Shown in pieces: positions 15,940 to 56,868 of a DNA stretch of 64,000 nucleotides. Source of the DNA: Agrobacterium vitis (lineage in GTDB: Bacteria > Pseudomonadota > Alphaproteobacteria > Rhizobiales > Rhizobiaceae); contig NZ_AP023274.1 in NCBI RefSeq assembly GCF_013426735.1, forward strand, positions 1-64,000, in the 5' to 3' direction. The notes under the pieces are model-generated. The model saw only the letters and a list, made by a program, of their open reading frames with translations, ran no database searches and had not been told where the DNA came from. A program made the position numbers and the translations under genes. Every line of letters starts with the position of its first letter. Positions within the stretch are counted from its first letter, which is position 1.

Positions 15940-15940
15940 A

Positions 15941-38653: not shown

Positions 38654-38689
38654 ACGACCCGCTCCCACACTGCGGAGCGGGTTCGTTTT
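38654..38689 (+). terminator. Stem-loop between binding-protein and ATPase genes
   Basis: CCCGCTCC and GGAGCGGG form the core of a hairpin followed by TTCGTTTTC. It lies between the binding-protein stop and the LivG start and probably causes partial termination or message stabilisation, so that the binding protein is made in excess. Confidence 0.65.
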
Positions 38690-38705
38690 CAACAGGAGCC
38701 TTTGA

Positions 38706-40147: not shown

Positions 40148-40997
40148 TACCATTGTGCAAGGCGCGCTGCTGGGCGGCCTCTACGCGCTGTTTGCCGCAG
40201 GTCTCAGTCTGGTCTTCGGCATTATGCGACTGGTCAATCTTGCGCATGGCGACCTAATTGTCCTCGCCTCTTTCCTAATCCTGGTGCTGGCCAACTCCCT
40301 CGGGATCAACCCGTTTTTGGCAGCTCTGATTGCCGCCCCGCTGATGTTTGGGCTTGGCTGGCTATTGCAGACCTATCTTTTGAACCGCACACTCGGCAAG
40401 GATATCCTGCCGCCGCTGCTGGTCACGTTCGGTCTGTCAATCGTTGTCCAAAACGGCCTACTGGAGGGCTTCACCGCCGATAGCCGTCGTCTTTCGACAG
40501 GCATTTTGGAGACCGCATCGCTGCCTTTGGCGGGACTGAGCATTGGTATCATGCCGCTTTTGACGTTCGGATCGGCGATCATCGTGATTATCGCCCTCAA
40601 CCAGTTGATCTATAGCACCTCGCTTGGTCGGGCATTTCGGGCCACATCCGATGATCCGGTGACGGCTGGCATGATGGGGGTGCGCCCGCATCGTATCTTT
40701 GCCATGGCAACAGGGCTTGCCATGGTTGTGGTCACAATCGCGGCTCTCTATCTCAGCACCCGCGCAAATTTCGACCCCACCGCTGGGCCATCGCGGCTGA
40801 TCTATGCCTTCGAGGCCGTCATCATTGGTGGGCTCGGATCACTGTGGGGCACGCTGGCGGGCGGTGTTATTTTGGGTATCGCCCAAACGCTAGGTGCCGC
40901 CATAAATCCCGAATGGCAGATTTTGGCAGGCCATATCGCCTTCTTGATCGTGCTTCTGGTCAGGCCACGCGGCTTGTTTCCACGCGCAATTGATTGA
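40134..40997 (+). CDS. ABC transporter permease (LivH-type)
   Basis: Inner-membrane permease of 287 residues with eight or so hydrophobic segments. Family stretches are LVFGIMRLVNLAHGDLIVLA and IIGGLGSLWGTLAGGVILGI. ATG 40134 is used because GGAG precedes it; earlier in-frame starts lie inside LivF. The next permease starts ten bases after its stop. Confidence 0.9.
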   Translation: MNWLDTIVQGALLGGLYALFAAGLSLVFGIMRLVNLAHGDLIVLASFLILVLANSLGINPFLAALIAAPLMFGLGWLLQTYLLNRTLGKDILPPLLVTFGLSIVVQNGLLEGFTADSRRLSTGILETASLPLAGLSIGIMPLLTFGSAIIVIIALNQLIYSTSLGRAFRATSDDPVTAGMMGVRPHRIFAMATGLAMVVVTIAALYLSTRANFDPTAGPSRLIYAFEAVIIGGLGSLWGTLAGGVILGIAQTLGAAINPEWQILAGHIAFLIVLLVRPRGLFPRAID

Positions 40998-41007
40998 GGA
41001 ACAGCAG

Positions 41008-42099
41008 ATGACATCCACCAACATCGCGTCAACCCAAGACAATCCATCAACCGGCTGGCGCATTCAAACCCGAACACGGCTGTCTTCGGCCTTTACGATA
41101 GGACTCGTGCTGGTCTTTGCAATGCTGGCCTTAGCTCCGTTTTTTGTGTCGCGTGGCACAATGCAAAATCTGTTTTACATCCTGACGATGCTGACATTGG
41201 CGCAGAGCTGGAACCTGCTTGCCGGATATGCGGGGCTGATTTCGGTTGGCCAGCAATTGTTTGTTGGCTGTGGGGCCTATGCGCTGTTTGCAATGGTCAT
41301 TCTACTTGGCGTCAATCCTCTGATTGCCATTCCCCTAGCGGGCGTTTTCGCCACGATCGTCACATTGCCCACCGCCCTCTTCACCTTCCGTCTCCACGGC
41401 TCCTATTTCGCCATCGGCACCTGGGTGATTGCTGAAGTGGGGCGGCTGGTGTTTGCCCAATGGAAAACGCTGGGCGGCGGCACGGGGGCGTCGCTGCCAC
41501 GCGAGGCCACCCGCGATATGTTTGGCGTCTCCACCATCAGTACAGTGTTCGGCATGAAACCGGCTGTTGCACTGGATTCACTGGCCTATTGGCTCGCATT
41601 GTTGTTGACGGGTTTCACCATCGTTTTCGTCTATCGGCTGTTGCGCAGCAAGCAAGGACTGGGCCTTGCTGCTGTGCGCGACAATGAAACAGCGGCAACG
41701 GCACTCGGCGTGGATGCCCTTCGTCTGAAATTGACGATTTATCTTCTCACAGCAGCCCTGACCGGCATGACTGGCGCACTGATCTATCTTCAGAAAGCCC
41801 GAATTTCACCCGATGCCGCCTTTTCACTCACAGATTGGACAGCCTATGTACTGTTCATCGTAATTGTGGGTGGAATCGGCACCATCGAAGGGCCCATCGT
41901 TGGTGTGATCATTTTGTTTTTCCTGCAAAATCTCCTGTCAGATTTTGGCTCATGGTATCTGTTGTTGCTGGGGGCGCTTGCAATCATAACAATGCTGTTT
42001 GCACCCAGGGGCATATGGGGGCTATTCTCAGAGCGCACCGGCATTGAGTTTTTCCCGGTTCGCCGGTTGTTGCGCGGTAGAACGAAAAACAAAAACTGA
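41008..42099 (+). CDS. ABC transporter permease (LivM-type)
   Basis: Inner-membrane permease of 363 residues. LAQSWNLLAGYAGLISVGQQ and RDNETAATALGVDALRLKLT are typical LivM motifs, and VGGIGTIEGPIVGVIILFFL marks the last helices. ATG 41008 follows GAGGAA. It completes the importer; the next gene is convergent at 42124, only 24 bases away. Confidence 0.9.
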   Translation: MTSTNIASTQDNPSTGWRIQTRTRLSSAFTIGLVLVFAMLALAPFFVSRGTMQNLFYILTMLTLAQSWNLLAGYAGLISVGQQLFVGCGAYALFAMVILLGVNPLIAIPLAGVFATIVTLPTALFTFRLHGSYFAIGTWVIAEVGRLVFAQWKTLGGGTGASLPREATRDMFGVSTISTVFGMKPAVALDSLAYWLALLLTGFTIVFVYRLLRSKQGLGLAAVRDNETAATALGVDALRLKLTIYLLTAALTGMTGALIYLQKARISPDAAFSLTDWTAYVLFIVIVGGIGTIEGPIVGVIILFFLQNLLSDFGSWYLLLLGALAIITMLFAPRGIWGLFSERTGIEFFPVRRLLRGRTKNKN

Positions 42100-42123: not shown

Positions 42124-42672
42124 TCAGTTCACCCCCAAATCCCCAGAGCCCTCTTCTACCCCGATCTCAAAGGCATTGAGGGTCATAGCAACAAACGTGT
42201 AGTAACCAACCACACCCACGAGTTCTGCTAGGCCCGCTTGCCCCAGAACAGTCACAGCCTCGTCATGGAGCGGGCTTGGGATGAAGCGGGTCTCCAATAA
42301 TGTCTTGGTATAACAATAGACGATGCGGGCTTTATCGCTTGGAAAGGCGGGAATGGCGCGTGTTCGGATTGCCTCGATGACGTGCGGCTCAATGCCAGCT
42401 TTCAATGCCTCCCGCTTATGCGCATCCCACTCGAAAATAGCGCCCCAGTCGCGCGCAACCACAAGAATCGCAAGTTCGGACAGATCAGCACCAAGCTCTG
42501 TGTTATAGCGAACGAATTCGCCGAGACGTTGTGCCCTTGCGCCCAATTCAGGGCTGTGGATCCACGCCCTGAGCGGTGCTGGAATGTGACCGCGTTGGCC
42601 AGATTTTGCTTCCTCGGCCACATTTTTCTGTGCCGGTGACATGTCTTCCAATTGTAGATCGGTCAAACGCAT
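42124..42672 (-). CDS. Carboxymuconolactone decarboxylase-family protein (copy 1)
   Basis: AhpD/CMD-fold protein of 182 residues. The core LAILVVARDWGAIFEWDAHK carries the conserved E-W-x-x-H, but no CxxC pair is present, so it is not a disulfide peroxidase of the AhpD kind. True decarboxylases act on carboxymuconolactone; other relatives dehydrate or decarboxylate ring-cleavage products. It is 18 bases downstream of the IclR regulator gene. Three proteins of this fold occur within 11 kb. Confidence 0.82.
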   Translation of the reverse strand: MRLTDLQLEDMSPAQKNVAEEAKSGQRGHIPAPLRAWIHSPELGARAQRLGEFVRYNTELGADLSELAILVVARDWGAIFEWDAHKREALKAGIEPHVIEAIRTRAIPAFPSDKARIVYCYTKTLLETRFIPSPLHDEAVTVLGQAGLAELVGVVGYYTFVAMTLNAFEIGVEEGSGDLGVN

Positions 42673-42690
42673 GCGCGTATTTCCTGAGTG

Positions 42691-43509
42691 TCACGAGAGC
42701 AGGAGGGCTTTCGCCTGAACTTCACGGTGTCCGCGCATCGATGTTTCGATTTGCCGGGCCGCATTCATCGCCATATCGACCAGCAGTGCTTTTTCCATGA
42801 GATCAAAGCGCGAGCGCGTTGTTAAAATCACCAGGGCCGCCGGGTCGAGTGCGTCACCGACAGGGATCGGAACCGCGACGCCAGCAGCATTCGGGTCAAG
42901 CTCCCCGATTGAGACAACATGGCCGTCATTTCGATATTTTAGCATCTGCTTACGAAATTCTGGCCATGTGGTTCCAAGCCCCGCCTCCGCTATTTCCGCC
43001 CCATAACGATCATAGAGCTTCTTGAGCTGCGAAGCTGTCATCGACGCCAGCAGGACTTTCGATCCGCCGCCGCGAAACAGCGGCATCGGCCGTCCTCGAC
43101 CGAAAGCGATTTGACCTGTTTCGTGCGCCAACTCCTGGTGAACCGCCATTATCTTCGTGCCATACATGCTGGCCAGCAGCACATCGCAGCCCGATTCCTG
43201 CGCCACCCGCACCATAACTGGCCGGCATGCAATCAGCAGGGGGTCGCACTGGCGGATATAGTAATCGAGTTCAATCACGCGCGGACCAAGAGAATAGCCA
43301 CCCTCTGCGCGGCGCAACAAACCAGCGTCGCAAAGTTCCTTGACATAGCGATAGCCGGTGGGACGAGAATGCCCACAATATTGGATGATCTCGTCAGCTG
43401 ACCAAATCGGCTTATCAACCGAAAACAGATCAAGGATCAGGAGCATTTTCGTTAGGCTTGACATGCAGGCTCGCGTGTAGAGTTGTTTGCGCCGATCCGT
43501 GAGGGTCAT
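42691..43509 (-). CDS. IclR-family transcriptional regulator (1)
   Basis: Regulator of about 272 residues. A winged helix (SSLTKMLLILDLFSVDKPIW, HSRPTGYRYVKELCDAGLLR) is followed by the IclR effector domain. The start is uncertain: ATG 43509 (MTLTDRR) is taken, ATG 43464 (MSSLTKM) is an alternative. It lies between a CMD-fold gene and the aromatic degradation genes and may govern the 43.6-49 kb block, including the paired 21-bp sites at 45346 and 45868. Confidence 0.85.
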   Translation of the reverse strand: MTLTDRRKQLYTRACMSSLTKMLLILDLFSVDKPIWSADEIIQYCGHSRPTGYRYVKELCDAGLLRRAEGGYSLGPRVIELDYYIRQCDPLLIACRPVMVRVAQESGCDVLLASMYGTKIMAVHQELAHETGQIAFGRGRPMPLFRGGGSKVLLASMTASQLKKLYDRYGAEIAEAGLGTTWPEFRKQMLKYRNDGHVVSIGELDPNAAGVAVPIPVGDALDPAALVILTTRSRFDLMEKALLVDMAMNAARQIETSMRGHREVQAKALLLS

Positions 43510-43619
43510 CGCACCGTTGCGACGCACCTATCCCACGCAAAGAGACTCGACCAAAAAAATGCACGCTAATCACCGAAGAGAAGGTGTGCAAGGTGCCCCA
43601 CCTCCCTCCCCCGATCAAA

Positions 43620-44555
43620 TCATGGGCTGACGGGCGCGTGTTTGCCTGTCAGTTGAACGGCTGGGCCCTTCACGCCTTTGGCCATAAGCTCAACACGTGT
43701 TTCGCGTGGCCAGGTTCTCTTCAGGTCATCGCGCACATTGATTGCCAGCCGACCAAGGCCTTCGACTTCCAACTCTACGCTATCTCCATCCTGAAATGCA
43801 TTGAGACCCCGGTGATTGGTGCCCGTGGCCACGACATCGCCCGGCTCCAAAGCCTGGATATGGCTTAGCCACTCAATGCAACGCGGGATCTTGTGCGCCA
43901 TGTCATCGGTGTTGAAATCCTGCTTGAGTTCGCCATTGACCCAAAGGCGAACCTGCAAGGATTGCGGATCCGGGATTTCGTCGGCAGTGACGATCCAGGG
44001 ACCAATCGGGGCAAACGTGTCGCGAGATTTCATCTGAAAATAATTGTTCTTTTCAGGGAGGGTGCCACGCGCTGAACCATCGATGAAGTTCACATAACCG
44101 AAAACATAGTCACGCCAGTTCTCAGCAGGAACCTGATGCGCACGCTTGCCAATCACCAAGGCCATCTCAGCTTCCCCTTCAAAGGTCCTTGCGGGAATGT
44201 CAGGCAGGACCATGGTGCCGCCCGGTCCGATAACAGCCGTCGATGCCTTGTGGAACGCATTGATGGCGGGCGGTTCCGCAAGCGTTCCGTCCTCCATATA
44301 GTTGACGGCCATGCAGACGATATTGCCGGGCTTTGGCAGCGGCGCTCGCAGCGCAACCGATGCCAGGCTGATCGGCGCACCAGCGTCTGCTGCGGCTTCC
44401 AGCGCACCGCGAAACTCATCAAACCGTGCGATCAGTCCTTGCATGAGGTCGTGTGGCCCCACATGCGGAATTGCCTCGACTGCGGAGGAAACGTCTATGA
44501 TGACGTCATCGCGGACGACGCCAAGTTTGTAGGAGTCGAAAAATGCAAGCTTCAT
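43620..44555 (-). CDS. Fumarylacetoacetate hydrolase-family enzyme (1)
   Basis: Mg-dependent hydrolase or isomerase of 311 residues. The FAH core is clear: VCMAVNYMED, the acidic metal ligands in RTFEGEAEMALVIGKRAHQV, YVFGYVNFIDGSAR and VATGTNHRGLNAFQDGD. Relatives cleave 2,4-dioxo acids or isomerise ring-cleavage products. ATG 44555 (MKLAFFDSYK) is chosen; a repeat lies just upstream. The neighbouring extradiol dioxygenase gene suggests it acts on that enzyme's product. Confidence 0.87.
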   Translation of the reverse strand: MKLAFFDSYKLGVVRDDVIIDVSSAVEAIPHVGPHDLMQGLIARFDEFRGALEAAADAGAPISLASVALRAPLPKPGNIVCMAVNYMEDGTLAEPPAINAFHKASTAVIGPGGTMVLPDIPARTFEGEAEMALVIGKRAHQVPAENWRDYVFGYVNFIDGSARGTLPEKNNYFQMKSRDTFAPIGPWIVTADEIPDPQSLQVRLWVNGELKQDFNTDDMAHKIPRCIEWLSHIQALEPGDVVATGTNHRGLNAFQDGDSVELEVEGLGRLAINVRDDLKRTWPRETRVELMAKGVKGPAVQLTGKHAPVSP

Positions 44556-44571
44556 GAAGATGATCTCTAAG

Positions 44572-44619
44572 CTAGAGTTTATCGAGGAAAATGGCACCCA
44601 GTTTTCTGAAAAGACAAAC
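44572..44619. repeat. CTAGAGTTT-family repeat, copy 2
   Basis: CTAGAGTTTATCGAGGAAAA continuing to CTGAAAAGACAAAC matches the copies at 6510 and 51652. It lies 17 bases before the FAH start and may sit in that gene's leader. Confidence 0.65.
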
Positions 44620-44633
44620 GAAAACAAGACAAC

Positions 44634-44670
44634 CTAAACTCTGTCCGGCTCAATCTGAGCCTGACAGAAT
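44634..44670. repeat. IS630-terminus-like palindrome, copy 2
   Basis: CTGTCCGGCTCA (44641-44652) and TGAGCCTGACAG (44656-44667) are 12-bp arms with one mismatch. In reverse orientation it reads GATTCTGTCAGGCTCA, related to the palindrome at 24476 and the IS630 remnant end at 2691. Confidence 0.6.
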
Positions 44671-44748
44671 CCAGCCCCTCGTTGATGCGCGTCTGATACG
44701 AGAAATCAGGAGCGCACGATTGCCGATCCGGCACTTTGCGCCGAAGCG

Positions 44749-45282
44749 TTACTGGGTTTCCAAGATCTTCTGCTTCAGCTTTTCGTTGAAACGATCGCGC
44801 CACTCGTGCAACGGCTGGAAATCTTCGTGCGCACGATTGGTTGCCTCGGATATGCGATAAATCTCATCGGCCGGAAGAGTGAAATCGACCGGGTCGGCGC
44901 AAGGCTGCTTTACATACCATTCCGTGTCGGTGAAATATTCCAGCCGGTTGCCCTCAGGATCAGGGAAATAGATCGACCAGGCAATGCCGTGGCTCACGCA
45001 GCGCATCTCCTTAGTGCCAGCATCAACAAGACGACGATGGACTTCACGCACTTCTTCAAGCGTGTCCAACTTGAACGAAAGCTGCTGCACCTGCGGGGTG
45101 TCAGCTGTCCGGCCAGCAAATAGCGCAACCTGGTGATGTTCCTCGATGTTGCGGCTCAAGAAGCACATTCTGCCCGGCACTTCATCTGTAACGATAAACC
45201 CGAGCACATTGATGTAATATTCACGCATGAGCGCGAGATCGTGAACGAAAAGCCCGACATGGCTGATGGAAACCTGTTGCAT
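44749..45282 (-). CDS. Small extradiol dioxygenase-like (VOC/glyoxalase-fold) protein
   Basis: Vicinal-oxygen-chelate protein of 177 residues. Metal ligands of type I extradiol enzymes are placed at ISHVGLFVHD (His), EEHHQVALFA (His) and NRLEYFTDTE (Glu). The sequence resembles catechol 2,3-dioxygenase-like proteins with one domain pair, so ring cleavage of a catechol or hydroquinone is plausible. ATG 45282 follows GGGAGGTAGG. It is in a minus-strand operon with GlcG-like and FAH proteins. Confidence 0.85.
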   Translation of the reverse strand: MQQVSISHVGLFVHDLALMREYYINVLGFIVTDEVPGRMCFLSRNIEEHHQVALFAGRTADTPQVQQLSFKLDTLEEVREVHRRLVDAGTKEMRCVSHGIAWSIYFPDPEGNRLEYFTDTEWYVKQPCADPVDFTLPADEIYRISEATNRAHEDFQPLHEWRDRFNEKLKQKILETQ

Positions 45283-45317
45283 TCCTACCTCCCTGAAACT
45301 CACTTTTGATAACAGAA

Positions 45318-45334
45318 CGATATTCCCAATATCG
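45318..45334. promoter_or_regulatory. Perfect palindrome before the extradiol gene
   Basis: CGATATT (45318-45324) and AATATCG (45328-45334) enclose CCC. A further AATATCG half site is near 45372. It is 36 bases before the extradiol start, in a good position for an operator. Confidence 0.5.
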
Positions 45335-45345
45335 AATACCATATC

Positions 45346-45366
45346 AATCTCACAAATTGAGATTAA
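45346..45366. promoter_or_regulatory. 21-bp operator candidate, site A
   Basis: Palindrome AATCTCA-CAAAT-TGAGATT plus AA. It matches site B at 45868 in 18 of 21 positions (AATCTCACAA, then AGATTAA). Site A is upstream of the extradiol gene. Confidence 0.6.
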
Positions 45367-45377
45367 CGTCAATATCG

Positions 45378-45821
45378 TTATGGCGCCTTCGCCGGCAAAA
45401 TCGCAGAGATGATCTCGGCATTCGATAAAAGCGCGTCCAAGGCAGCCTGGGCAATGCGTTCATCCTGATGGGACTGAACCCCAGACACACCGATTCCGCC
45501 CAAGCACCATTTTTCAACCATGATCGGCAGCCCGCCCTGAATCGGCAATCCGTATGAAAGTTTGAGAAAAACGGGTCTTTCTGCGATTCTTTCCTCCATA
45601 TCCTTTGATTTTCGCCGGGAAATTGCCGCCATTTTTGCTTTTCCGATGGCGATTTCGCTTGTGGCAGAGCCGGTGCCATCCATTCGTTCAAGACGAAGAA
45701 GAGCGCCGCCTTCGTCAACAATGGCAATCGTGACACTCCAACTGTTTGCTTCGGCACATCTGCGGGCTGCCTCGCACATCAGAATTATGTCGATCTCATT
45801 CAGGTGTGGCCTCATATGCAT
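45378..45821 (-). CDS. GlcG/HbpS-family protein
   Basis: A 147-residue protein of the GlcG/HbpS (DUF336) family, which includes haem-binding and cofactor-associated proteins found in many degradation operons. Visible are WSVTIAIVDEGGALLRLERM, the GKAKMAAISRRKSKD helix and the GGLPI..GGIGVSGVQSHQDE C-terminal core. ATG 45821 follows AAGGAGAAAA. It is cotranscribed with or just upstream of the extradiol and FAH genes. Its role is uncertain. Confidence 0.8.
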   Translation of the reverse strand: MHMRPHLNEIDIILMCEAARRCAEANSWSVTIAIVDEGGALLRLERMDGTGSATSEIAIGKAKMAAISRRKSKDMEERIAERPVFLKLSYGLPIQGGLPIMVEKWCLGGIGVSGVQSHQDERIAQAALDALLSNAEIISAILPAKAP

Positions 45822-45867
45822 GTGTCGTTTTCTCCTTAGGGATGAAAGTCTCTCAAAAAATTGGATA

Positions 45868-45888
45868 AATCTCACAATATTAGATTAA
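45868..45888. promoter_or_regulatory. 21-bp operator candidate, site B
   Basis: Copy of site A, with AATCTCACAA and AGATTAA conserved, in the divergent region between GlcG-like and MmgE/PrpD genes. The repeat at both promoters suggests one regulator controls both directions. Confidence 0.6.
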
Positions 45889-46075
45889 TTGACATTTTCA
45901 AAGGGGCATGCCAAACCTTTTAGCGTCGCTGACGCGTCGCGATCTCACTCTGGGGGGAGTTCATGTTTTTCCGCGGTCATAAAATCAATCTGGCTTCAAT
46001 GCTGGACGCAGCAGCATCCGTCAGCAGATGGCAGCCAAGCCAAGCTTTTCAAGAACACGCAAAGGGAACCCATCA

Positions 46076-47557
46076 ATGACCACGTTGATTGACGACGTTT
46101 CCAAACGGATCGCTTCAGGAGCACCCTTTCGGCAAGATCCCCTTGTTTCGCAGGGCCTGTCTATCCACGTCCTCGACACTATCGGTGCATGGATTGCGGG
46201 GCGTGCGACACGAGAAGGCCATCGTCTTTCACGGCTCAGAGATGAGAAATCCCAGTCATTGGCACCACTGACGCGCTCAACACTGGACACGATTGCACTG
46301 AGGGTCGCCACCGCACGGCTGAGCGAGGTGGACGATGTGCATATGCCCTCATGCACAACGCCGGGCGCGATTGTGGTTATGACGGCTTTGTCTTTGATGG
46401 CCGATCTGGCGGATCGTGCTGACACCATTCTGTTTATCGATGCACTCCACGCGGGATATGAGATCATGACCCGCCTTGGCGAAGCGGTGTCCGGTCCTGA
46501 TATCTTGCACACGGGGATCTGGCCCACCTACCTGCTCGCACCGGTCACAACGGCCGCAGTCACCGCAAAGCTTTTGGGCTTGGATTGGGAACGGACAGCG
46601 CATGCCTTGGCCATTGCGCTTTCCACGTCGAGTGGAAGGCCGGGAGGCAGCGTCAGTGGCGGGGTGGTTGGTGGCGCGGGAACCTCTGCGCGTTGGCTGC
46701 TCGCGGGCCTTGCCGCAAAAACGGGCTGCATCGCCGCCCTCAGTGCCTCGAAAGGCTTCAATGGCGATAGAAACTTCATGGATGGAGAGTGGCCCGCCCG
46801 AAGCCACGGCGTAACATTGGAGAAGGATATTCTCCTGAATGTCTTTGAAGGTCAGGCGGCAGTCCTTGGCACCAGTATCAAGCCTTATTGCGCAGCCAAG
46901 CACGCCATAGCCGCCATCGACGGCTTTCAAATGCTTCTGAAACAGGGTGTTCCGCTTGACACTGTGACCAAGGTTGTTGTGAAAGCCCCGCCCGTGCATG
47001 CTGGCATGATTGGCCATCATGATGTCAGTTTGAGCCGCCTTTCTCGCATTACCAGTTGCAGCTATAATCTAGCACTGGCGGCATTTTGGCCGGATAAATT
47101 GCTCGATATCGAGCGAACCGATGCCGTGGCTGACCCAGCGGTGGTGGAGTTTGCAAAAAAGGTGGAGGTTGTTGCCGATCCTGAACTGGCGCACCAATGC
47201 CCTCAGAATTACCCCGCGAGCATCGATCTTTTCATCAATGAGAGGATTATTGCTTCAATTGCCATATCGGACGCCCTCGGCGACCCCGCCAAACCCTTCG
47301 ATCTTGATTTGGCACGAGGAAAATTTCGCCGTCTCGCGCGCGGCATCATCCGTGAAAGCCTGGCGCTGCACATCGAGCAATGCTGTCTGGACTTGAACAA
47401 TCCAACGGCTGGGCCGGAACTGGCGGCGATCATGACGGAGATAGACAATTCACTGACACCCAAAACGGTGGCAGACCATGACAGGGAAGACATGCAAAAC
47501 GCCGGAATGATATCGGCCGCAGAACTGGAGAGGAGAGATTATGGTAAGGTCAGTTGA
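46076..47557 (+). CDS. MmgE/PrpD-family protein
   Basis: Protein of 493 residues from the MmgE/PrpD fold, whose members include 2-methylcitrate dehydratase, cis-aconitate decarboxylase and related lyases. Family marks are SIHVLDTIGAWIAG, EVDDVHMPSCTTPGAIVVMT, GYEIMTRLGEAV and the later SIKPYCAAKHAIAAIDGFQ. ATG 46076 follows AAAGGGAA. Its 3' end overlaps the next gene, a flavin monooxygenase, by 17 bases, so both act in one pathway; a hydratase or decarboxylase step on a ring-derived acid is likely. Confidence 0.86.
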   Translation: MTTLIDDVSKRIASGAPFRQDPLVSQGLSIHVLDTIGAWIAGRATREGHRLSRLRDEKSQSLAPLTRSTLDTIALRVATARLSEVDDVHMPSCTTPGAIVVMTALSLMADLADRADTILFIDALHAGYEIMTRLGEAVSGPDILHTGIWPTYLLAPVTTAAVTAKLLGLDWERTAHALAIALSTSSGRPGGSVSGGVVGGAGTSARWLLAGLAAKTGCIAALSASKGFNGDRNFMDGEWPARSHGVTLEKDILLNVFEGQAAVLGTSIKPYCAAKHAIAAIDGFQMLLKQGVPLDTVTKVVVKAPPVHAGMIGHHDVSLSRLSRITSCSYNLALAAFWPDKLLDIERTDAVADPAVVEFAKKVEVVADPELAHQCPQNYPASIDLFINERIIASIAISDALGDPAKPFDLDLARGKFRRLARGIIRESLALHIEQCCLDLNNPTAGPELAAIMTEIDNSLTPKTVADHDREDMQNAGMISAAELERRDYGKVS

Positions 47558-49052
47558 TGTCGTCATTGTAGGGTTGGGTCCAACAGGTGCCACCTTGGCA
47601 AACCTGCTGTGCAGCATGGACCTGACGGTATGCATCGTTGAGGCCGATGAAACGATGTTTACGCTGCCGCGTGCGACCCATTTTGATGGGGAGGTGATGC
47701 GGGTGTTTCAAACAATCGGGCTTGCAGACAAGATCAAGCCCGACACACACGTCAATCCCGGCATGACCTTTATCAACGCACAGCACGACGTCATCCTGCA
47801 CTGGCCGCGTCCCGCCGAAGTGGGGCCGCAGAACTGGCATGGAAGTTATCGCTTTCACCAACCGGCGCTGGAAACCGTGTTGCGGGAGGGCCTCAATCGC
47901 TTCCCGCACGCAAAGGTGTTGTCGGGCTGTGAAATCGTTTCACTCAAACAGGGCGAAGACGGCGTTGTAGCACAATACCGAATGCGCAAGACTGGCGAGA
48001 CCGCATCCGTCAAGGGGCGGTACCTTGTTGGATGTGACGGCGGACGATCACCTGTTCGTGGCATGATCTCGAGCCAGCTTGAAGACCTCGGAAGCCATGA
48101 ACGTTGGATCGTGGTCGATCTGCTGATGAACCGGGATGTTGACGGCCTGACGGACGGTACGGTTCAATTTTGCAACCCGGTGCGCCCCACGACCTTCATG
48201 CGCTGCGTCAAAAATCGACGCCGGTGGGAATTTATGGTGATGCCCGGGGATGATCTTGAACAGCTTCTGACACCTGAGGGTATTTGGGGTCTTCTGTCAC
48301 CTTGGCTCACACCCGATGATGGCGAGATCGAGCGTGCGGTGACCTATTTCTTCCACGCTGTCATGGCCAAGCCATGGCGGGTGGATCGCGTGCTTCTTGC
48401 CGGAGATGCCGCGCACCAGACACCACCTTTTCTTGGTCAGGGGCTTTGTGCTGGCATCAGGGACAGTTCCAATCTCGCCTGGAAGCTCGCCCATGTGATC
48501 AAAGGCATGGCATCGGAGGCGCTCCTCGATACGTATGAACTGGAACGAGCACCACATGTTCGTAAATATATCGAGAATGCCATACAGATCGGCAGTATCA
48601 TTCAGACAGTTGACCCTGAACTGGCACGCGAAAGAGATGAGAATCTGGCCAAGGGTGGGCGGTTTATCACCTCAATCAATGCGCAACTCGGCGCGGGACT
48701 TCATGGATCGGAACCACTCCCGGCAGGCATGATTTCTCGGCAACCGATCCTGACGTCCGGTCGCCCGCTAGACGACGTGGTCGGCAATGCTTTCGTGGTT
48801 CTTGGTGCGAAGGATGTGCTGGACAAGGTATCGAAAGACACACGCAGGCGATGGGATGATGTCGGTTTGATCTGCCTTGCTGATGAGGGCAGCGACTATT
48901 TGGCTGAGATTGGTGCGATGGCCATTATCATTCGGCCCGACCGTTACATTTTGGGGATCGCCAATAGCCCGCAAGACCTTGATCGTATCTCAGAATTGCT
49001 TCCCACTCAGGCCCGGCAGACAGAAATGACGGGGATAGCCGCTCAAGGGTAA
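47541..49052 (+). CDS. FAD-dependent aromatic monooxygenase (MhpA-like)
   Basis: Class A flavoprotein hydroxylase of 503 residues. It has GLGPTGATLANLL at the N terminus, VGCDGGRSPVRGM in the middle and RVLLAGDAAHQTPPFLGQG near residue 285, all typical of 3-(3-hydroxyphenyl)propionate hydroxylase relatives. It lacks an obvious long thioredoxin-like tail and so is shorter than PheA-type enzymes. It overlaps MmgE/PrpD and ends 10 bases before a strong terminator. It could start the route whose ring product feeds the adjacent extradiol enzyme. Confidence 0.88.
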   Translation: MVRSVDVVIVGLGPTGATLANLLCSMDLTVCIVEADETMFTLPRATHFDGEVMRVFQTIGLADKIKPDTHVNPGMTFINAQHDVILHWPRPAEVGPQNWHGSYRFHQPALETVLREGLNRFPHAKVLSGCEIVSLKQGEDGVVAQYRMRKTGETASVKGRYLVGCDGGRSPVRGMISSQLEDLGSHERWIVVDLLMNRDVDGLTDGTVQFCNPVRPTTFMRCVKNRRRWEFMVMPGDDLEQLLTPEGIWGLLSPWLTPDDGEIERAVTYFFHAVMAKPWRVDRVLLAGDAAHQTPPFLGQGLCAGIRDSSNLAWKLAHVIKGMASEALLDTYELERAPHVRKYIENAIQIGSIIQTVDPELARERDENLAKGGRFITSINAQLGAGLHGSEPLPAGMISRQPILTSGRPLDDVVGNAFVVLGAKDVLDKVSKDTRRRWDDVGLICLADEGSDYLAEIGAMAIIIRPDRYILGIANSPQDLDRISELLPTQARQTEMTGIAAQG

Positions 49053-49062
49053 TAGCATTCTT

Positions 49063-49109
49063 GAGGCCGTTCAGCGTCACCGATCTGGATGCTGAACGGC
49101 CTCGTTTTC
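49063..49109 (+). terminator. Rho-independent-type terminator
   Basis: GAGGCCGTTCAGC (49063-49075) and GCTGAACGGCCTC (49091-49103) are perfect 13-bp arms followed by GTTTTC. It closes the MmgE-monooxygenase operon. Confidence 0.8.
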
Positions 49110-49287
49110 ATTGGATCAGGCTTTAAATCTGGATCGGATAAAAAGGAAATTATCAAACGACTATAAAGCATGATAGCGTTGGCACGCTCGATGGCGCGCA
49201 ACGCTATCATAGAAAATAGATAAGCCTTGCTCTGGCGGTATCGAATATGGCGATAAGGCCGTATTCGATCATTGTCCTCATAGGATT

Positions 49288-50142
49288 TTATAGCTGTTCT
49301 GCCTTGATCGAATTGCGCAAGATGCCAATTTCGGAGATCTCAACTTCAACAATGTCTCCATCCTTGAGGAACAGTTGCGGGTTGCGGCGAACGCCGACGC
49401 CACCGGGCGTTCCCGTAACAATCACATCGCCCGCTTCCAAGGGGGTAAAGATCGAGCAATACTCGATAATTTCCGGAATAGAGAAAATCATCTGGCTGGC
49501 GTCTGCGCTCTGGACTTCTTGTCCGTTGACGCGTGTCTTGAGATGCAGCGGTGCATTGTCAGGAATTTCACCACGCGTTGACATCCAGGGGCCAAAACCA
49601 CCCGTTTGATACCAGTTTTTACCCGGCGTCCATTGCCCTGTGTGTCCCTGCCATTCACGAATGCTGCCGTCATTGTAAGGCGCATAGCCGGCAATATGGC
49701 TCCAGGAATCGGCTTGCGATATCCGGCGACCAGGCTTGCCGATGATGATTGCAATCTCCCCTTCATAATCGAATGTGTGGGATTCGGGCGGAGCCACCAA
49801 AGGCTGCATGTGGCCAATCTGGCTGGCTGGGAAACGCGCAAAAACCATCGGCTTCTTGCTGGGGTCTCTGCCAATTTCAGAGCGGTGCGCCTCATAATTC
49901 ACGCCAATACAGATGATTTTCGGCGGGTTGGGGATGACCGGAAGAAACGTAATATCCGTTAACGCATAATCCGGCTTTACCCCGACACATGCCGCTTCAA
50001 GTTCGCGGAGGGCATCTGCTTCAAGGACCGCCAGAAGATCTGCATAGCGCCCTTCAAACTTGCGACCAAGATCGATAACGCCGTCATCAATGACAGCACC
50101 GAAGCTTTTACGGTTCTGGATTTCAAAACTCAGTAGTTTCAT
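49288..50142 (-). CDS. Fumarylacetoacetate hydrolase-family enzyme (2)
   Basis: FAH-fold enzyme of 284 residues. KIICIGVNYEAHRSEIG, the acidic FDYEGEIAIIIGKPGRRIS site, and VIVTGTPGGVGVRR are conserved. It is the last gene of the 54400-to-49288 minus-strand operon and is clearly different from the FAH protein at 43620. It likely hydrolyses or isomerises the product of the flavin monooxygenase route of this operon. The exact substrate is unknown. Confidence 0.88.
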   Translation of the reverse strand: MKLLSFEIQNRKSFGAVIDDGVIDLGRKFEGRYADLLAVLEADALRELEAACVGVKPDYALTDITFLPVIPNPPKIICIGVNYEAHRSEIGRDPSKKPMVFARFPASQIGHMQPLVAPPESHTFDYEGEIAIIIGKPGRRISQADSWSHIAGYAPYNDGSIREWQGHTGQWTPGKNWYQTGGFGPWMSTRGEIPDNAPLHLKTRVNGQEVQSADASQMIFSIPEIIEYCSIFTPLEAGDVIVTGTPGGVGVRRNPQLFLKDGDIVEVEISEIGILRNSIKAEQL

Positions 50143-50201
50143 GTCTTACGCACTCCTGTTTGTACCGGTTCTGGGATTGAGCACTCACCGTTGACCGGCA
50201 A

Positions 50202-50762
50202 TCAAAGTCTTCCGGTCGCGGGGAGTGGAAACTCCTCCAGGAACGGCGCATATTCTGGCTCCAGATCAATCTCGATGGCCGCCATGACGCGAACGAGACC
50301 GATATATTCGCCGATGGTGACCAGCAGATCCACAAGGTGCTCGCTGCTGAGGGCTTGCGCGAGTTGATCGAAACGCTCCCCGGAGAGCGTGATGTGATCG
50401 GTGAGTTCTCTTGTTGCCGCCAACACGACCCGCGCCAGCGGCTCCAAGTGGGTCTCGCCACCTTCACTTTCCACGCCGATCGCCCGGATATCGTCCCGGC
50501 TCACCCCAAAGGAAAGCGCCACATCAACATGATGCGCCCATTCATAGGCAGAGCGGGTGCTGTAGCCGACTTGCAAGATCGCCAGTTCGCGAAGACGTGG
50601 GTTCAATCCACTTTGATGGCGGAAATACATTCCTCTTGCTGCAACAAGGTTCGCCAACACAGGACTATGCGCAACGGCCCGCGTAATATTCGACGTCATG
50701 CGCGGGATGTTGCGATGCTCGGGCTGAAGATCCTCCAATTTCAAATATTTTATGCGTCCCAT
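50202..50762 (-). CDS. Carboxymuconolactone decarboxylase-family protein (copy 2)
   Basis: CMD-fold protein of 186 residues with the core RLRELAILQVGYSTRSAYEW followed by AHHVDVALSFG. The conserved E-W-x-H-H is present but no CxxC. The ATG 50762 is 4 bases after the SDR stop and has TAAGGCG before it. In context it may decarboxylate, dehydrate or otherwise process a ring-derived acid. Confidence 0.85.
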   Translation of the reverse strand: MGRIKYLKLEDLQPEHRNIPRMTSNITRAVAHSPVLANLVAARGMYFRHQSGLNPRLRELAILQVGYSTRSAYEWAHHVDVALSFGVSRDDIRAIGVESEGGETHLEPLARVVLAATRELTDHITLSGERFDQLAQALSSEHLVDLLVTIGEYIGLVRVMAAIEIDLEPEYAPFLEEFPLPATGRL

Positions 50763-50766
50763 CGCC

Positions 50767-51621
50767 TTACGCCCCCAAGCTTCGTTTTGTCTCGCCAACA
50801 GCCTCGGCCACGATCGAAGCGGGATCATAACCGGACGATGCGAATGCGATGAGGTCTGGCTGATAATTGGACTGCGAGCAGATCAGGAAGGCATCCCGCT
50901 CAAGGCCTTCAATCAAGACCTTTGCGGCATGTTCTGCCGGCACACGCACAGTGCGTCGCGTCGGAACACCGATGGAAAACTCTTCTGGTGCAGGCATTCC
51001 CGGCGGCGGGGTTGGCGAGACGCCGCCTGGCATCTCGGCGGTTGCCGTAATACCGGGGCAGAAAACCGAGATGCCGACACCGGTCCCGCTTAGGGCATGC
51101 GCATAGGCATAGCTCATTGAAAGCTGGGCACCTTTGGAGGTGATATAGGGGCCCATGAAGCGGATCGGTGGATCAGGAAGCAGCGCCAATGCAGACGAGG
51201 TGTTGACGATGTGGCCCGCGTTGCGCTCCAGCATTCCCGGCAAAAAAGCCTTGATGGTGCGAAGATAGCCCAGCACATTGACATCGAATGCGGCTTGAAA
51301 CTGATCGAGACCAACGTTCAAAATTGAGCCGGTCACCGGAGGCTTGGCGGCGTTGTTGATGAGGATATCGACCACACCGCAGCGGCTTTCGACCTGTCGC
51401 TGCAAGTCAGCGACTTCCTGATCGTTGGCGAGATTGCAGCGGAAGGCTACCGCCTTGCCGCCGGGCACCGACTTGGCCGCTTCTTTCGCGCCGTCCTCGT
51501 TGATATCCACGATAACAACCCGGGCACCCAACTGGCCAAGGCTTCGTGCAGTTGCGCGACCGATACCGGTCGCGGCACCCGTTATGAGTACCAATTTGCC
51601 ATCGAATTTCATCAGTTGCAT
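50767..51621 (-). CDS. Short-chain dehydrogenase/reductase (SDR)
   Basis: NAD(P)-dependent oxidoreductase of 284 residues (or 281 from ATG 51612). The cofactor motif TGAATGIGRA, the NNAA stretch, catalytic serine in NTSSALALL and YITSK (YxxxK) are all present. It is between the dienelactone-hydrolase gene and CMD copy 2. It may oxidise a hydroxylated ring intermediate or reduce a keto group. Confidence 0.9.
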   Translation of the reverse strand: MQLMKFDGKLVLITGAATGIGRATARSLGQLGARVVIVDINEDGAKEAAKSVPGGKAVAFRCNLANDQEVADLQRQVESRCGVVDILINNAAKPPVTGSILNVGLDQFQAAFDVNVLGYLRTIKAFLPGMLERNAGHIVNTSSALALLPDPPIRFMGPYITSKGAQLSMSYAYAHALSGTGVGISVFCPGITATAEMPGGVSPTPPPGMPAPEEFSIGVPTRRTVRVPAEHAAKVLIEGLERDAFLICSQSNYQPDLIAFASSGYDPASIVAEAVGETKRSLGA

Positions 51622-51651
51622 CCTATGTTACAGCTATAGCCTATTGTTTTT

Positions 51652-51700
51652 GTTTGTCTTTTCAGGGAGATCGGAGTCCACTTTTCCTTGACAAACTTTA
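51652..51700. repeat. CTAGAGTTT-family repeat, copy 3 (inverted)
   Basis: Read on the minus strand it runs AAAGTTTGTCAAGGAAAAGT to GAAAAGACAAAC, as in copies 1 and 2. It lies between the SDR and dienelactone-hydrolase genes, and its first three bases on the minus strand form the TAA stop of the hydrolase. Confidence 0.7.
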
Positions 51701-52402
51701 GGCAGCCGGTGTTTCACCCAGAAGGGAAATGAAAGCGCCCCATGAGCAGGCATCAGCCTTGGCGTCATAACCAAAGCCGGGGCCAGCCTCATGAATATCT
51801 GGATCGGTGAACCCGTGACCAACACCCCCGAAGAGGCACAGTTGGTAGTCGACACCTGCGGTGCTCATGTCCTGCTGGAAGCCGTGTATTTGGCTCATCG
51901 GCGAAAAAGGGTCGGCATCACCGACACAAACCATCAGGGAGGTCTTGATGCCTGCCGCACCCCGCTCGCTCGTCAATGCACCATGAAAGACGGTTGCGCT
52001 TTTGACCGGAACACCCCACCGGGCCAGTTCAAGCCCGCACCAGCCACCGAAACAATAGCCAGCGACAGCGATAGCTCCGACATCCAATCGGGCGGCGTCA
52101 GAGAGGGCTTTCAACCCGGCTTCGACACGCGCCAGCAACAGATCGGGCTGCGCTTTCAGTGCGCCCACCAAGGCCCGCGCCTGCGCATGCTCTTTCACCA
52201 GCTGCCCTGCCCCGTATAAATCTGCTGCGAAGGCGTGATAGCCAAGGCTCGCCAGCATGTCGGCGCGTCTGCGCATATGAGGTCCGAGCCCAGGGGCTTC
52301 ATGCAGCAACAGAACGCCGGTTTTGGCGGCGCTGTCTCCCGCCGCATAATATCCGATACATTTTGTATCTCCGGCGTCATAACGCCGCTCAACACCCCGC
52401 AT
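51698..52402 (-). CDS. Dienelactone hydrolase-family protein
   Basis: Alpha/beta hydrolase of 234 residues. The nucleophile is a cysteine in VAGYCFGGWCG, as in classical dienelactone hydrolases, with the acid in VGDADPFSP and the histidine in GVGHGFTDPD. The start ATG 52402 overlaps the CMD copy-3 stop region by one base spacing (TGAG then ATG) and follows GGGGAGG. It probably opens a lactone or cleaves an ester formed in the same operon. Its stop codon is part of a repeat. Confidence 0.88.
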   Translation of the reverse strand: MRGVERRYDAGDTKCIGYYAAGDSAAKTGVLLLHEAPGLGPHMRRRADMLASLGYHAFAADLYGAGQLVKEHAQARALVGALKAQPDLLLARVEAGLKALSDAARLDVGAIAVAGYCFGGWCGLELARWGVPVKSATVFHGALTSERGAAGIKTSLMVCVGDADPFSPMSQIHGFQQDMSTAGVDYQLCLFGGVGHGFTDPDIHEAGPGFGYDAKADACSWGAFISLLGETPAA

Positions 52403-52403
52403 C

Positions 52404-53171
52404 TCACACACCTCCCCGTGTTAAGCTGTTGATGATCGGCAGGCCAAAAACCATGGCGTGAATGCCCATGCTCGATATCTGTTTGCACACATCGAGCACT
52501 TCCCGTGCGCTTGCTCCATGCTCCAATGCTGCCCGCACATGTTGACGCACGCCAACCGGATTGAGTTGGGTGACCTGCGCATGAACCGCAAGCGCAATCA
52601 GATGCGCCTCTTTCATCGACAGTGTTGCATCTGGACCCCGTATCGGGGCGGCCGCGAAATTGAGCCAGCATTGATAGAATTTCGGATCAAGCTTTATTCC
52701 TGCCTGAACCTCGTCCAATATTGCCCCGAAAACGGCGAGATGCTCCTTGCGCACCATCGTCGCAGACGGCTCATCGACAACAATCTCACCGGGCGCGAAC
52801 TCGGCAATTGCTTCAGCGGCGAGCAGATAAGAATGAATGCCCATCGCACTGACCGTCGCGACCACGGAAAGAAGCTCCGAAGGGCTAGCCCCCAAATCCA
52901 GTGCCTGCCGGGCGTGGTTTTTAAACCCCTTTTCGAACATATGCGTGGGCGAACAATTCGTTGCCACATAGATCAATTCGCGCAGTTTTGGCGATATCGA
53001 TCCTTGCTCGTCGGAATAGACGGAGAAATCGAGATAGGCCGCAACATAGGCTGGGGAATAGGACAGCATAGCTTCCCAGTCATCATGCCAGTGACCACGC
53101 CGACGTTTAAACTCCGCACGGATCCAGTCTGGATCGAGCGACGACCCTGCTGATGTCAAGATGGTCTCCAT
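52404..53171 (-). CDS. Two-domain carboxymuconolactone decarboxylase-family protein (copy 3)
   Basis: A 255-residue protein with two CMD-fold units: the first around LRELIYVATNCSPTHMFEKG, the second around MKEAHLIALAVHAQVTQLNP, with a HVRAALEHGASAREVLDVCK segment. No CxxC is present in either. ATG 53171 is taken in place of a long unsupported extension; it starts 5 bases after the monooxygenase stop. Its role is unknown; the duplication distinguishes it from copies 1 and 2. Confidence 0.84.
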   Translation of the reverse strand: METILTSAGSSLDPDWIRAEFKRRRGHWHDDWEAMLSYSPAYVAAYLDFSVYSDEQGSISPKLRELIYVATNCSPTHMFEKGFKNHARQALDLGASPSELLSVVATVSAMGIHSYLLAAEAIAEFAPGEIVVDEPSATMVRKEHLAVFGAILDEVQAGIKLDPKFYQCWLNFAAAPIRGPDATLSMKEAHLIALAVHAQVTQLNPVGVRQHVRAALEHGASAREVLDVCKQISSMGIHAMVFGLPIINSLTRGGV

Positions 53172-53176
53172 AGCAG

Positions 53177-54400
53177 TCAGAACGGGCTGAGCGGGGCAAG
53201 CCCGAAGTGAAGGCGTGCAGCGTTGACGGCCGTGCGCGACCGTTGCTGAACAAAATGGGTTTTCTGCACCGCCGCATCTCGATAAATACGGGCGAGCATG
53301 GATTGCTTGGCCCCGGTGCTCGTGCCCGCCGTGGTGAAGATGATTTCCAACCCGTCCCAAGCAAGGCGGCAGGCCTCCTGGGCGGCAGCAAAGAGCCGTC
53401 TGTCGGTCTCTTCAGTAAAACCTTCGCCAGTCTCCTGATGCAGGCTGCACGCTTCCAGATAGCGTTCCGTCACCTTCAAGAGAAGCGCTTCGGCGGAATC
53501 GATCTTGGTTTGGGCATCGCCATAATATTGCTGGAACTCATGGCTCTCGTACAAACGCTGCTTTGATGAGAAGCGCATCGGCTTGTTGCGCAAGATGTCT
53601 TCGAAAATATCGAGCGCACCCTTTACAGCGCCGACCACGACCGCACCCAGCTCAATCACAAAATACGATGCTTTGCGGCCGTTATACATTGGGTTTGCAT
53701 GCACCGCCGCGCCACGCTCGCCGCGCCACATGACGATGGGAGCGGTACGATATTCCGGCACAAAAACATCCTTGACGACCAGCCGACGAGAGCCGGTGCC
53801 CTGCATCCCAATCATGTCCCAGTTATTGACGATTTCATAATCAGAACGGTCAACCAGCATCAATCGGGGCGTCATGCTGCCGTCGGCTTCCGGTGTCAGA
53901 CCACTGACCATTGCATGGGTCGAGACATCGCAACCTGATGCATAATCCCAACCGCCGCTGACACGAAATCCGCCCTTTTCAAGCGTCACCGGAACTGGCG
54001 ACCCAACCGAGGGACACCGATAATCACCGTCATCGCCATAGGCTTCGATCTGTGCCCGTTCGCTGAAATCAGCCAGCATGATAGGATGGCCTGACACAAG
54101 CGCCAGAACCCAGCCGCTTGAAGGGCAGCCGCGGGCGATTTCCATCATCACCTTCACGTAAGTGGTCAGGTCAAATTCGTAGCCACCGAAACGGCGCGGC
54201 TGGACAACACGATAAAAACCAGCCCGCATGAACTCCTGATGGGTAACCTCCAGCAGGCGCCCACCGGCCTCGGCATCCGCCTGGCGCGCTCTGAGTGTGC
54301 CGATCATGGCCGTCGCTCGCGCGATCATCTCATCTGGCTGCAAGTTCGGCTCCGGCGGCTCCAATCCAACAGTTTCGAACTTTCGCTCAACATTTACCAT
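53177..54400 (-). CDS. Acyl-CoA dehydrogenase-fold flavin monooxygenase (HsaA/DszC-like)
   Basis: A 407-residue protein of the group D flavin monooxygenases, which have an acyl-CoA dehydrogenase fold and use reduced flavin from a separate reductase. FYRVVQPRRFGGYEFDLTTY, EIARGCPSSGWVLALVSGHP and QGTGSRRLVVKDVFVPEYRT are typical of HsaA-like phenol hydroxylases. It is the first gene of a six-gene operon. No reductase gene is next to it, so the partner must come from elsewhere (the flavin-reductase-like gene at 15277 is one option). Confidence 0.87.
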   Translation of the reverse strand: MVNVERKFETVGLEPPEPNLQPDEMIARATAMIGTLRARQADAEAGGRLLEVTHQEFMRAGFYRVVQPRRFGGYEFDLTTYVKVMMEIARGCPSSGWVLALVSGHPIMLADFSERAQIEAYGDDGDYRCPSVGSPVPVTLEKGGFRVSGGWDYASGCDVSTHAMVSGLTPEADGSMTPRLMLVDRSDYEIVNNWDMIGMQGTGSRRLVVKDVFVPEYRTAPIVMWRGERGAAVHANPMYNGRKASYFVIELGAVVVGAVKGALDIFEDILRNKPMRFSSKQRLYESHEFQQYYGDAQTKIDSAEALLLKVTERYLEACSLHQETGEGFTEETDRRLFAAAQEACRLAWDGLEIIFTTAGTSTGAKQSMLARIYRDAAVQKTHFVQQRSRTAVNAARLHFGLAPLSPF

Positions 54401-54660
54401 TAACGCACCTCACCCTCCGCATGAGCCCTCGCAATTTTAGCGAGCACTCTCCTGAGGATGATTTGAAACCCGCCATTGGCAATCGACAACAAGGGTCAAG
54501 GCCATGTCCGGTATGTGTACACGGATACATCTGCCGGACGCCTGCGTCAGCCAAGATGTAGGGTGCTGCTGAAGGCTTTAGTGTTCAAGTCACGCAGTTA
54601 AATGGTTAATTGCGCCCGTCTCCGATATTCGGAACGTTCTCGATATCAAGAGGTCGCCCA
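54401..54660. promoter_or_regulatory. Divergent region, monooxygenase operon and MFS transporter
   Basis: No gene is seen. A near palindrome GATATTCGGAAC / GTTCTCGATATC centred near 54638 lies about 20 bases before the transporter start and could be an operator. Confidence 0.4.
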
Positions 54661-56756: not shown

Positions 56757-56868
56757 TGTCTTCTCCCTTGTTATTTCCGTTCCGGAACGAAACGGAAGAT
56801 TAAAAAAATCGTCCCCACCTTTGTTCACACCACCGCCTGATGCCGACCCAATGGCGGCATCAGGCCGC

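Follow-up and report, generated by a model that had tools for sequence, protein, structure and literature searches.

Which compound would be degraded, and by which steps, by a gene cluster that brings together two kinds of flavin monooxygenase, an extradiol-dioxygenase-like protein, two fumarylacetoacetate-hydrolase (FAH)-fold enzymes and three carboxymuconolactone decarboxylase (CMD)-fold proteins? Such a cluster lies at 42124..54400 of the 64,000-nucleotide stretch of Agrobacterium vitis analysed here (the window), which is part of contig C3 (NZ_AP023274.1) of a 5.88-Mb genome. A preliminary description, made from the sequence alone, had proposed an undescribed aromatic degradation system, and this proposal is supported as far as the collections and the literature searched reach; no published description of the cluster was found in a literature search that covered few subscription papers. 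The region is best accounted for by a large aerobic pathway with two ring-cleavage branches at its end. The specific reading that we tentatively prefer, at somewhat less than even chances, is that the greater part of a single aerobic pathway is encoded here, dedicated to the breakdown of a plant aromatic compound; a polyphenol with two rings or a conjugated phenolic is its likeliest substrate.

Gene content of the cluster

All of the genes named in the preliminary description are present and form three adjacent transcription units, with intra-unit gaps of -62 to 121 bases. They are as follows (window positions).

42124..42672, minus strand: CMD1, one CMD domain, no CxxC motif (PF02627, 24.3 bits)
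42691..43527, minus strand: IclR regulator, PcaR-like (PF01614/PF09339; TIGR02431, 69 bits, below the cut-off of 285)
43620..44627, minus strand: FAH1, FAH fold (PF01557, 182 bits)
44749..45372, minus strand: VOC-Q, type I extradiol-dioxygenase-like protein of one domain, in which Gln takes the place of the second His ligand (PF00903)
45378..45875, minus strand: HbpS/GlcG-like protein (PF03928, 103 bits)
46028..47557, plus strand: MmgE/PrpD family protein (PF03972 and PF19305)
47541..49052, plus strand: group A flavin monooxygenase of the MhpA-like subfamily (NF004829, 603 bits; cut-off 390)
49288..50142, minus strand: FAH2, FAH fold (PF01557, 216 bits)
50202..50828, minus strand: CMD2, one CMD domain, no Cys (PF02627, 39.2 bits); true start probably nearer 50762
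50767..51621, minus strand: SDR oxidoreductase (PF00106, 143 bits)
51698..52411, minus strand: dienelactone hydrolase (DLH) family protein (PF01738, 127 bits)
52404..53171, minus strand: double-CMD protein, fusion of two CMD domains, without CxxC (PF02627, 57.1 bits, two matches)
53177..54400, minus strand: HsaA-like group D flavin monooxygenase with acyl-CoA-dehydrogenase fold, oxygenase 1 (NF045629, 205.3 bits, cut-off 450; HsaA structure 2rfq, 143 bits)

The double-CMD protein probably starts at 53171 (255 amino acids), near the start given in the annotation of Allorhizobium ampelinum S4; for CMD2, that annotation has 186 amino acids versus 208 here.

Conservation of the HsaA/CMD block

An alignment of the double-CMD protein was used to scan the genomes of 84,980 species. 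The scan, which relied on two short peptide patterns and is blind to relatives lacking them, yielded 13 loci, distributed among four Rhizobiaceae, three Novosphingobium, Xanthobacter, Variovorax, Pseudomonas, and Acetobacteraceae, Azospirillaceae and Sphingomonadales metagenome-assembled genomes. The genes for the HsaA-like oxygenase, the double-CMD protein, the DLH-like enzyme, the SDR and CMD2 are contiguous in all 13 loci, which span alpha-, beta- and gammaproteobacteria, with identities of 47–64% to the block in Variovorax and Pseudomonas. This contiguity is more than chance. The closest named relatives of the double-CMD protein are from A. vitis strains (98% identity), and the S4 protein is 98.8% identical to the A. 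vitis homologue taken as the query. Three distant double-CMD or CMD matches on other plasmids have unrelated surroundings.

FAH2 adjoins CMD2 in 11 of the 13 loci and shares a contig with the double-CMD gene in the other two, at a distance of ~10 and 15 kb; it is on the cluster contig in all 11 relatives searched. Furthermore, the VOC-Q, MhpA-like and FAH2 genes share a contig with the CMD/HsaA block in each of the 13 genomes.

Extent of the region and flanking genes

The genes listed above constitute only part of the unit, which reaches well past the limits originally given to it and comprises ~30 genes at roughly 31.8–66.5 kb (~35 kb). On the annotated plasmid pAtS4e of A. ampelinum S4, the same genes occupy an unbroken ~34-kb stretch, starting with the second HsaA-like oxygenase and the flavin reductase and continuing through the TonB receptor, the racemase-fold enzyme, the thiolase, the OB-fold protein, the CoA-transferase, the SRPBCC protein, the MFS transporter and the operons matching 42124..54400 to the Liv-type ABC transporter, the FAD monooxygenase, maleylacetate reductase, LysR and the intradiol dioxygenase. 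The flanking genes in A. vitis are as follows.

31801..32637, plus strand: intradiol dioxygenase, hydroxyquinol/catechol type (PF00775 and PF04444; chlorocatechol model, 189 bits, below the cut-off of 359)
33120..34070, minus strand: LysR regulator (Pfam)
34172..35245, plus strand: Fe-ADH fold, probable maleylacetate reductase (PF00465/PF25137; S4 orthologue annotated as maleylacetate reductase; none of the NCBIfam models scanned scored above its cut-off)
35274..37031, plus strand: FAD monooxygenase with Rng_hyd_C, probable resorcinol/hydroquinone-type hydroxylase (PF01494 and PF21274)
37349..42099, plus strand: Liv-type ABC transporter: binding protein, two ATPases and two permeases (Pfam/NCBIfam; S4 annotation)
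54610..55908, plus strand: MFS transporter (PF07690)
56328..56828, minus strand: SRPBCC/polyketide-cyclase-like protein (PF10604, 66 bits), kept in relatives
56869..58254, minus strand: fused two-subunit 3-oxoacid CoA-transferase (PF01144, two stretches)
58299..58718, minus strand: OB-fold/zinc-ribbon protein, partner to the thiolase (99% to the S4 protein by tblastn)
58718..59920, minus strand: thiolase, SCP2/BbsB/PhlC type
59886..60839, minus strand: Asp/Glu-racemase-superfamily enzyme, maleate-isomerase-like, both Cys kept (PF17645; 2xec; alignment)
60863..61720, plus strand: IclR-type regulator 2 (PF09339/PF01614)
62003..63985, minus strand: TonB-dependent receptor (PF00593)
C3:64531-65172, just past the window end: flavin reductase
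C3:65227-66447, just past the window end, after the flavin reductase: second HsaA-like oxygenase (oxygenase 2)

The fused CoA-transferase scores 211 bits against both TIGR02429 and TIGR02428, which is above the cut-off of the former (128.5) and below that of the latter (243.6). The S4 OB-fold protein matches PF01796 and PF12172, as in the ChsH2 type. Enzymes of the maleate isomerase-type racemase superfamily have two active-site Cys; both align with those of 2xec in the enzyme found here and are kept in all aligned relatives except L013, the row of which is mistranslated.

Where the contigs allow, the genes for the SRPBCC protein, CoA-transferase, OB-fold protein, thiolase, maleate-isomerase-like enzyme, IclR, VOC-Q and MhpA-like monooxygenase surround the block in varying orders; these wider maps set coordinates side by side, with no sequence joined. 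The second HsaA-like gene was found in eight of the nine mapped non-Rhizobiaceae genomes, the ninth contig being short. Variovorax has nine core genes on one strand, in a series that runs from the gene for the second HsaA-like oxygenase to that for the maleate-isomerase-like enzyme. Within the regions mapped, HbpS is restricted to Rhizobiaceae, and MmgE and FAH1 to Rhizobiaceae, Pseudomonas and Variovorax; an SMP-30-type lactonase gene occurs in place of MmgE/FAH1/HbpS in the seven other alphaproteobacterial genomes. Rhizobium sp. CG5 and Agrobacterium sp. a22-2 carry a TRAP transporter, versus the Liv ABC transporter here.

Relatives repeatedly encode, in the cluster region, an F420-oxidoreductase-like protein of 211–213 amino acids that binds NAD(P) (L048:3612-4247, L045:4076-4711 and L035:5434-6075); in S4 it adjoins the second HsaA-like oxygenase. 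Another flavin reductase domain protein is encoded at window 15277-16206, ~37 kb from the HsaA-like oxygenase, and a 98% identical copy is present in L030 (6307-7233), on the same contig.

Linkage to a hydroquinone/hydroxyquinol module

A ring-cleavage gene for hydroquinone or hydroxyquinol (p-diols) is linked to the block on the cluster contig, 3–27 kb away from the HsaA-like gene, in 10 of 12 genomes and in at least three arrangements. Eight of these genomes encode PnpD, the large subunit of hydroquinone 1,2-dioxygenase, 3.5–23 kb from the HsaA-like gene; the other two, Rhizobium sp. CG5 and the genome of the window, have an intradiol dioxygenase gene at 21–27 kb. Where the dioxygenase gene is linked, it is found together with genes for aldehyde dehydrogenase or maleylacetate reductase. 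The count leaves out CG78, and A. vitis CG118, a 13th genome that also stands outside it, has no PnpD and an intradiol gene whose position relative to the cluster is uncertain.

The FAD monooxygenase at 35274..37031 is 73% identical to the product of a gene adjoining a related hydroxyquinol module in A. vitis T60/94. The upper pathway beside that module on the T60/94 plasmid pAt (L041) includes an amidohydrolase, an acetolactate-synthase-like enzyme, two two-domain VOC proteins and an FAH1-like gene. A. vitis plasmids therefore carry alternative aromatic pathways beside such a module.

A separable MhpA-like/ring-cleavage/FAH2 triad

The genes for the MhpA-like monooxygenase, a ring-cleavage enzyme and FAH2 make up a triad. 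Plasmids of Variovorax and Paraburkholderia carry it with no CMD/HsaA block alongside, and in both of them the VOC protein is of the Gln type. Among 13 FAH2 paralogue sites at ≥47% identity, 11 were examined, and an MhpA-like gene and a ring-cleavage gene accompany the FAH2 paralogue at eight of them (the three without the full triad are L093, L096 and L097). Seven of these eight triad sites have, for ring cleavage, an extradiol dioxygenase of two domains in which the usual His is present, and one has an enzyme of the Gln type; L090 and L091, among the FAH2 sites, are from related strains, and their dioxygenases look identical in the aligned stretch. On a Martelella plasmid, a small cluster of this kind, with a two-domain dioxygenase, an MhpA-like enzyme and FAH2, is accompanied by a TRAP transporter and an adjoining CMD gene. 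Because the triad occurs alone while the block is always accompanied by triad genes (13/13), the triad probably represents the later, lower part of the pathway.

VOC-Q and the His-to-Gln replacement

The preliminary description spoke of a small extradiol dioxygenase. VOC-Q has the VOC fold, and its family finds catechol 2,3-dioxygenase as the best profile match (E = 7e-21), but the second His ligand is replaced by Gln. In XylE, H153, H214 and E265 are the iron ligands and H199, H246 and Y255 the acid–base residues, a numbering that our alignment confirmed. At the three ligand positions VOC-Q has His, Gln and Glu, which is not a 2-His-1-carboxylate triad. Among 75 homologues, the position of H214 is occupied by Gln in 73, His in one and Pro in one, while the equivalents of H153, H199, H246, Y255 and E265 are invariant in all 75. 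A tree of 112 sequences contains 96 with Gln, 11 with His, four with Glu and one with Pro. It places a single change between His and Gln, for which the support is moderate (93/67); its bootstrap had not settled, some of its branches are long, the trait column was included in the build and the five rows with other residues are uncounted.

VOC isomerases with a Gln ligand exist, namely glyoxalase I and methylmalonyl-CoA epimerase, and for this reason VOC-Q could have a non-oxygenase role. On the other hand, its place in the triad speaks in favour of ring cleavage, and we infer that VOC-Q opens a ring.

The family is broader than the pathway, and VOC-Q was therefore rejected as a pathway marker. 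Of 385 alphaproteobacterial genomes, 26 contain the family; there are 38 matches, one of them the window's own and some carrying His. The other 37 are distributed over 33 loci, where an MhpA-like gene was found in one and an FAH2-like gene in four, a few of these stretches being shorter than 7 kb. In a sample of 369 genomes of the Variovorax genome's class, two contain the family, one of which is the Variovorax genome itself. Ten neighbour proteins at five VOC-Q-family loci include CoA-transferase III, amidohydrolase, GST, PhyH and Rieske proteins. Gln-type VOC genes adjoin CoA-transferase family III genes at L058:8566-10322 and L064:8433-10194, with an amidohydrolase nearby in L058, which is another genomic setting for this clade. 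Tandem VOC proteins in L079, L081, L084 and L085 combine one domain with the Gln signature and another with Glu at this position and Ser/Ala replacing the final Glu ligand.

CMD-fold proteins

The description of three CMD-fold proteins without CxxC needs one amendment: the motif, looked for in all three, is present in none, but the protein at 52404 is a fusion, so that the window contains four CMD domains. All three proteins pass the PF02627 gathering cut-off of 23, and four of the five Pfam CMD matches in the genome sit in this region. Against the PcaC model TIGR02425, the double-CMD protein reaches 21.4 bits, below the cut-off of 155.7, and CMD1 and CMD2 give no match at E = 0.001. A structure from Burkholderia xenovorans, PDB 2q0t, is likewise of a double-CMD protein (26% identity), its entry title offering only a putative name; for CMD2, a PDB relative sought by sequence was not found. 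Fold searches considered matches among the best 1000 Foldseek chains, where the absence of a family is uninformative. The CMD proteins might process ring intermediates, as had been suggested; their genes are located within or next to the operons.

Proposed pathway and alternatives

The preferred reading, a dedicated pathway for a two-ring plant compound, can be outlined as follows, the substrate, the order of the steps and every individual reaction being conditional. In the upper part, the two HsaA-like monooxygenases, the double-CMD protein, CMD2, the DLH-like enzyme and the SDR would oxidise the substrate and dismantle the linker, the CMD proteins possibly decarboxylating or isomerising intermediates that are lactones or keto acids. 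One ring would be released as hydroquinone or hydroxyquinol and converted via maleylacetate to beta-ketoadipate, by PnpCD, aldehyde dehydrogenase and maleylacetate reductase in most relatives and by the intradiol dioxygenase and maleylacetate reductase in A. vitis. The other ring, of resorcinol type (perhaps a resorcinol-type acid), may be hydroxylated by the MhpA-like enzyme and opened by VOC-Q; FAH2 would then cut the ring-opening product, and the maleate-isomerase-like enzyme would finish one fragment. The CoA-transferase and the thiolase/OB-fold protein may cleave the leftover beta-keto acid. A bolder version, in which a new upper pathway splits a two-ring plant polyphenol with CMD-fold enzymes and a widespread extradiol clade uses a His-Gln-Glu metal site, is conceivable, although we consider it unlikely.

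Several observations weigh against a single dedicated pathway. The loci cannot be counted as independent, since gene order is largely shared by the four Rhizobiaceae and by the seven other alphaproteobacteria, and CMD1, FAH1, MmgE and HbpS are missing from some relatives. Both dioxygenases of Variovorax ginsengisoli are on contigs other than that of the cluster, the hydroxyquinol module of Agrobacterium sp. a22-2 (with Liv ABC) is on another contig, its enzyme genes being 87–92% identical, and in A. vitis T60/94 a related hydroxyquinol/ABC module (45–73% identical enzymes) adjoins a different upper pathway; the p-diol module is therefore separable. These last two arrangements, the occurrence of the triad alone and the presence of several regulators of differing families are what would be expected of a catabolic island, in which independent small-aromatic pathways (hydroxyquinol/resorcinol, the MhpA/VOC/FAH triad and HsaA/CMD) travel together and serve different substrates. 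We regard this as rather improbable, because triad genes accompany the HsaA/CMD block in all 13 loci, linkage of the p-diol ring-cleavage gene recurs in several arrangements (10 of 12 genomes) and the nine Variovorax core genes share one strand. The transporters (Liv ABC here; TRAP in CG5 and a22-2) suit small acids as well as polyphenols, and the minimal triads must act on something simple enough for three enzymes. Both points would fit a one-ring substrate, that is, one substituted phenolic acid on which the HsaA/CMD block acts, with the two ring-cleavage branches as alternative exits for differently hydroxylated products; this seems to us clearly improbable, since it leaves the joint retention of the thiolase/OB-fold pair, the CoA-transferase, two oxygenases and two or three CMD proteins unexplained. 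Finally, the CMD proteins might be antioxidant or AhpD-like peroxidases that shield the flavoenzymes rather than pathway enzymes. AhpD alkylhydroperoxidase is defined by a CxxC redox motif, and the lack of this motif from the three window proteins, together with the grouping of the genes for the double-CMD protein and CMD2 with those for the lactone hydrolase and the SDR in one series at 13/13 loci, makes this very improbable.

If the preferred reading is true, grapevine-associated Allorhizobium, sphingomonads, Xanthobacter, Variovorax and Pseudomonas have an undescribed route in common, and roles would be provided for CMD-fold proteins that are now called decarboxylases by family alone. The clade-wide His-to-Gln change further poses the question of whether a His-Gln-Glu site is able to perform extradiol chemistry or catalyses another reaction, for which the triads, with like neighbours and either a His or a Gln enzyme, offer a ready natural experiment.

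Comparison with known systems

The region fits none of the routes named in the preliminary description (protocatechuate, gentisate, homogentisate and phenylacetate), as far as these were tested. The protocatechuate/beta-ketoadipate-type genes of this genome lie elsewhere, on contig C2, with a CMD gene at C2:872982, a CoA-transferase pair at C2:878313-879568 and PcaF at C2:879705 (693 bits against TIGR02430; cut-off 597), and the beta-ketoadipate route was accordingly rejected as the whole story. The PcaC/PcaD/PcaIJ/PcaF branch likewise brings CMD, lactone hydrolase, CoA-transferase and thiolase families together; the cluster thiolase gives no match to TIGR02430 at E = 0.001. Because of these separate genes, and of the separate CoA-transferase genes within the p-diol module of some relatives, the fused CoA-transferase and the thiolase of the cluster probably act on a keto acid other than beta-ketoadipate.

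Steroid ring degradation was rejected, because both HsaA-like oxygenases are far below the NF045629 cut-off of 450 (205.3 and 131.4 bits). They belong to the same family as HsaA and the 4-hydroxyphenylacetate C2 two-component monooxygenases, a flavin reductase gene adjoining the second, and score 124 and 114 bits against the C2 model (cut-off 650). For the homoprotocatechuate route, also rejected, the VOC and FAH proteins match the HpaD and HpaG models far below the cut-offs, and no aldehyde dehydrogenase or HpaH/HpaI-type gene is present among the window genes scanned. The homogentisate route was set aside as well: the VOC-fold homogentisate dioxygenase 9u42 matches weakly and keeps His where the VOC-Q clade has Gln. 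The VOC fold is common to VOC-Q and the type I extradiol dioxygenases XylE, HpaD and BphC, from which VOC-Q differs in its Gln for the H214 equivalent. The MhpA-like monooxygenase belongs to its subfamily by NF004829 and falls below the cut-offs of all four MhpA equivalog models (score/cut-off: NF004831, 364/546; NF004828, 259/853; NF004827, 249/966; NF004830, 248/1135).

The pairing of a thiolase with a small OB-fold/zinc-ribbon partner resembles that in the benzoylsuccinyl-CoA thiolase BbsAB, PhlC and ChsH2-type pairs, which cleave C-C bonds; the cluster thiolase has moderate scores (BbsB-type, 127 bits; PhlC, 95 bits), and the OB-fold protein scores 32 bits against the BbsA model (cut-off 250). 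The ifc (isoflavone, Variovorax) and fde (naringenin, Herbaspirillum) systems were compared by their published descriptions. The steps described for ifc use cupins, and its Results text mentions no CMD/HsaA block (PMC11069340); FdeD is described as a Rieske protein (PMC11069340, PMC8552027). As proposed here for the MhpA-like enzyme and VOC-Q, a group A flavin monooxygenase of ifc is described as hydroxylating the phenolic ring before a glyoxalase-type protein acts (PMC11069340), and a flavin monooxygenase is likewise followed by a glyoxalase-type protein in fde (PMC11069340, PMC8552027).

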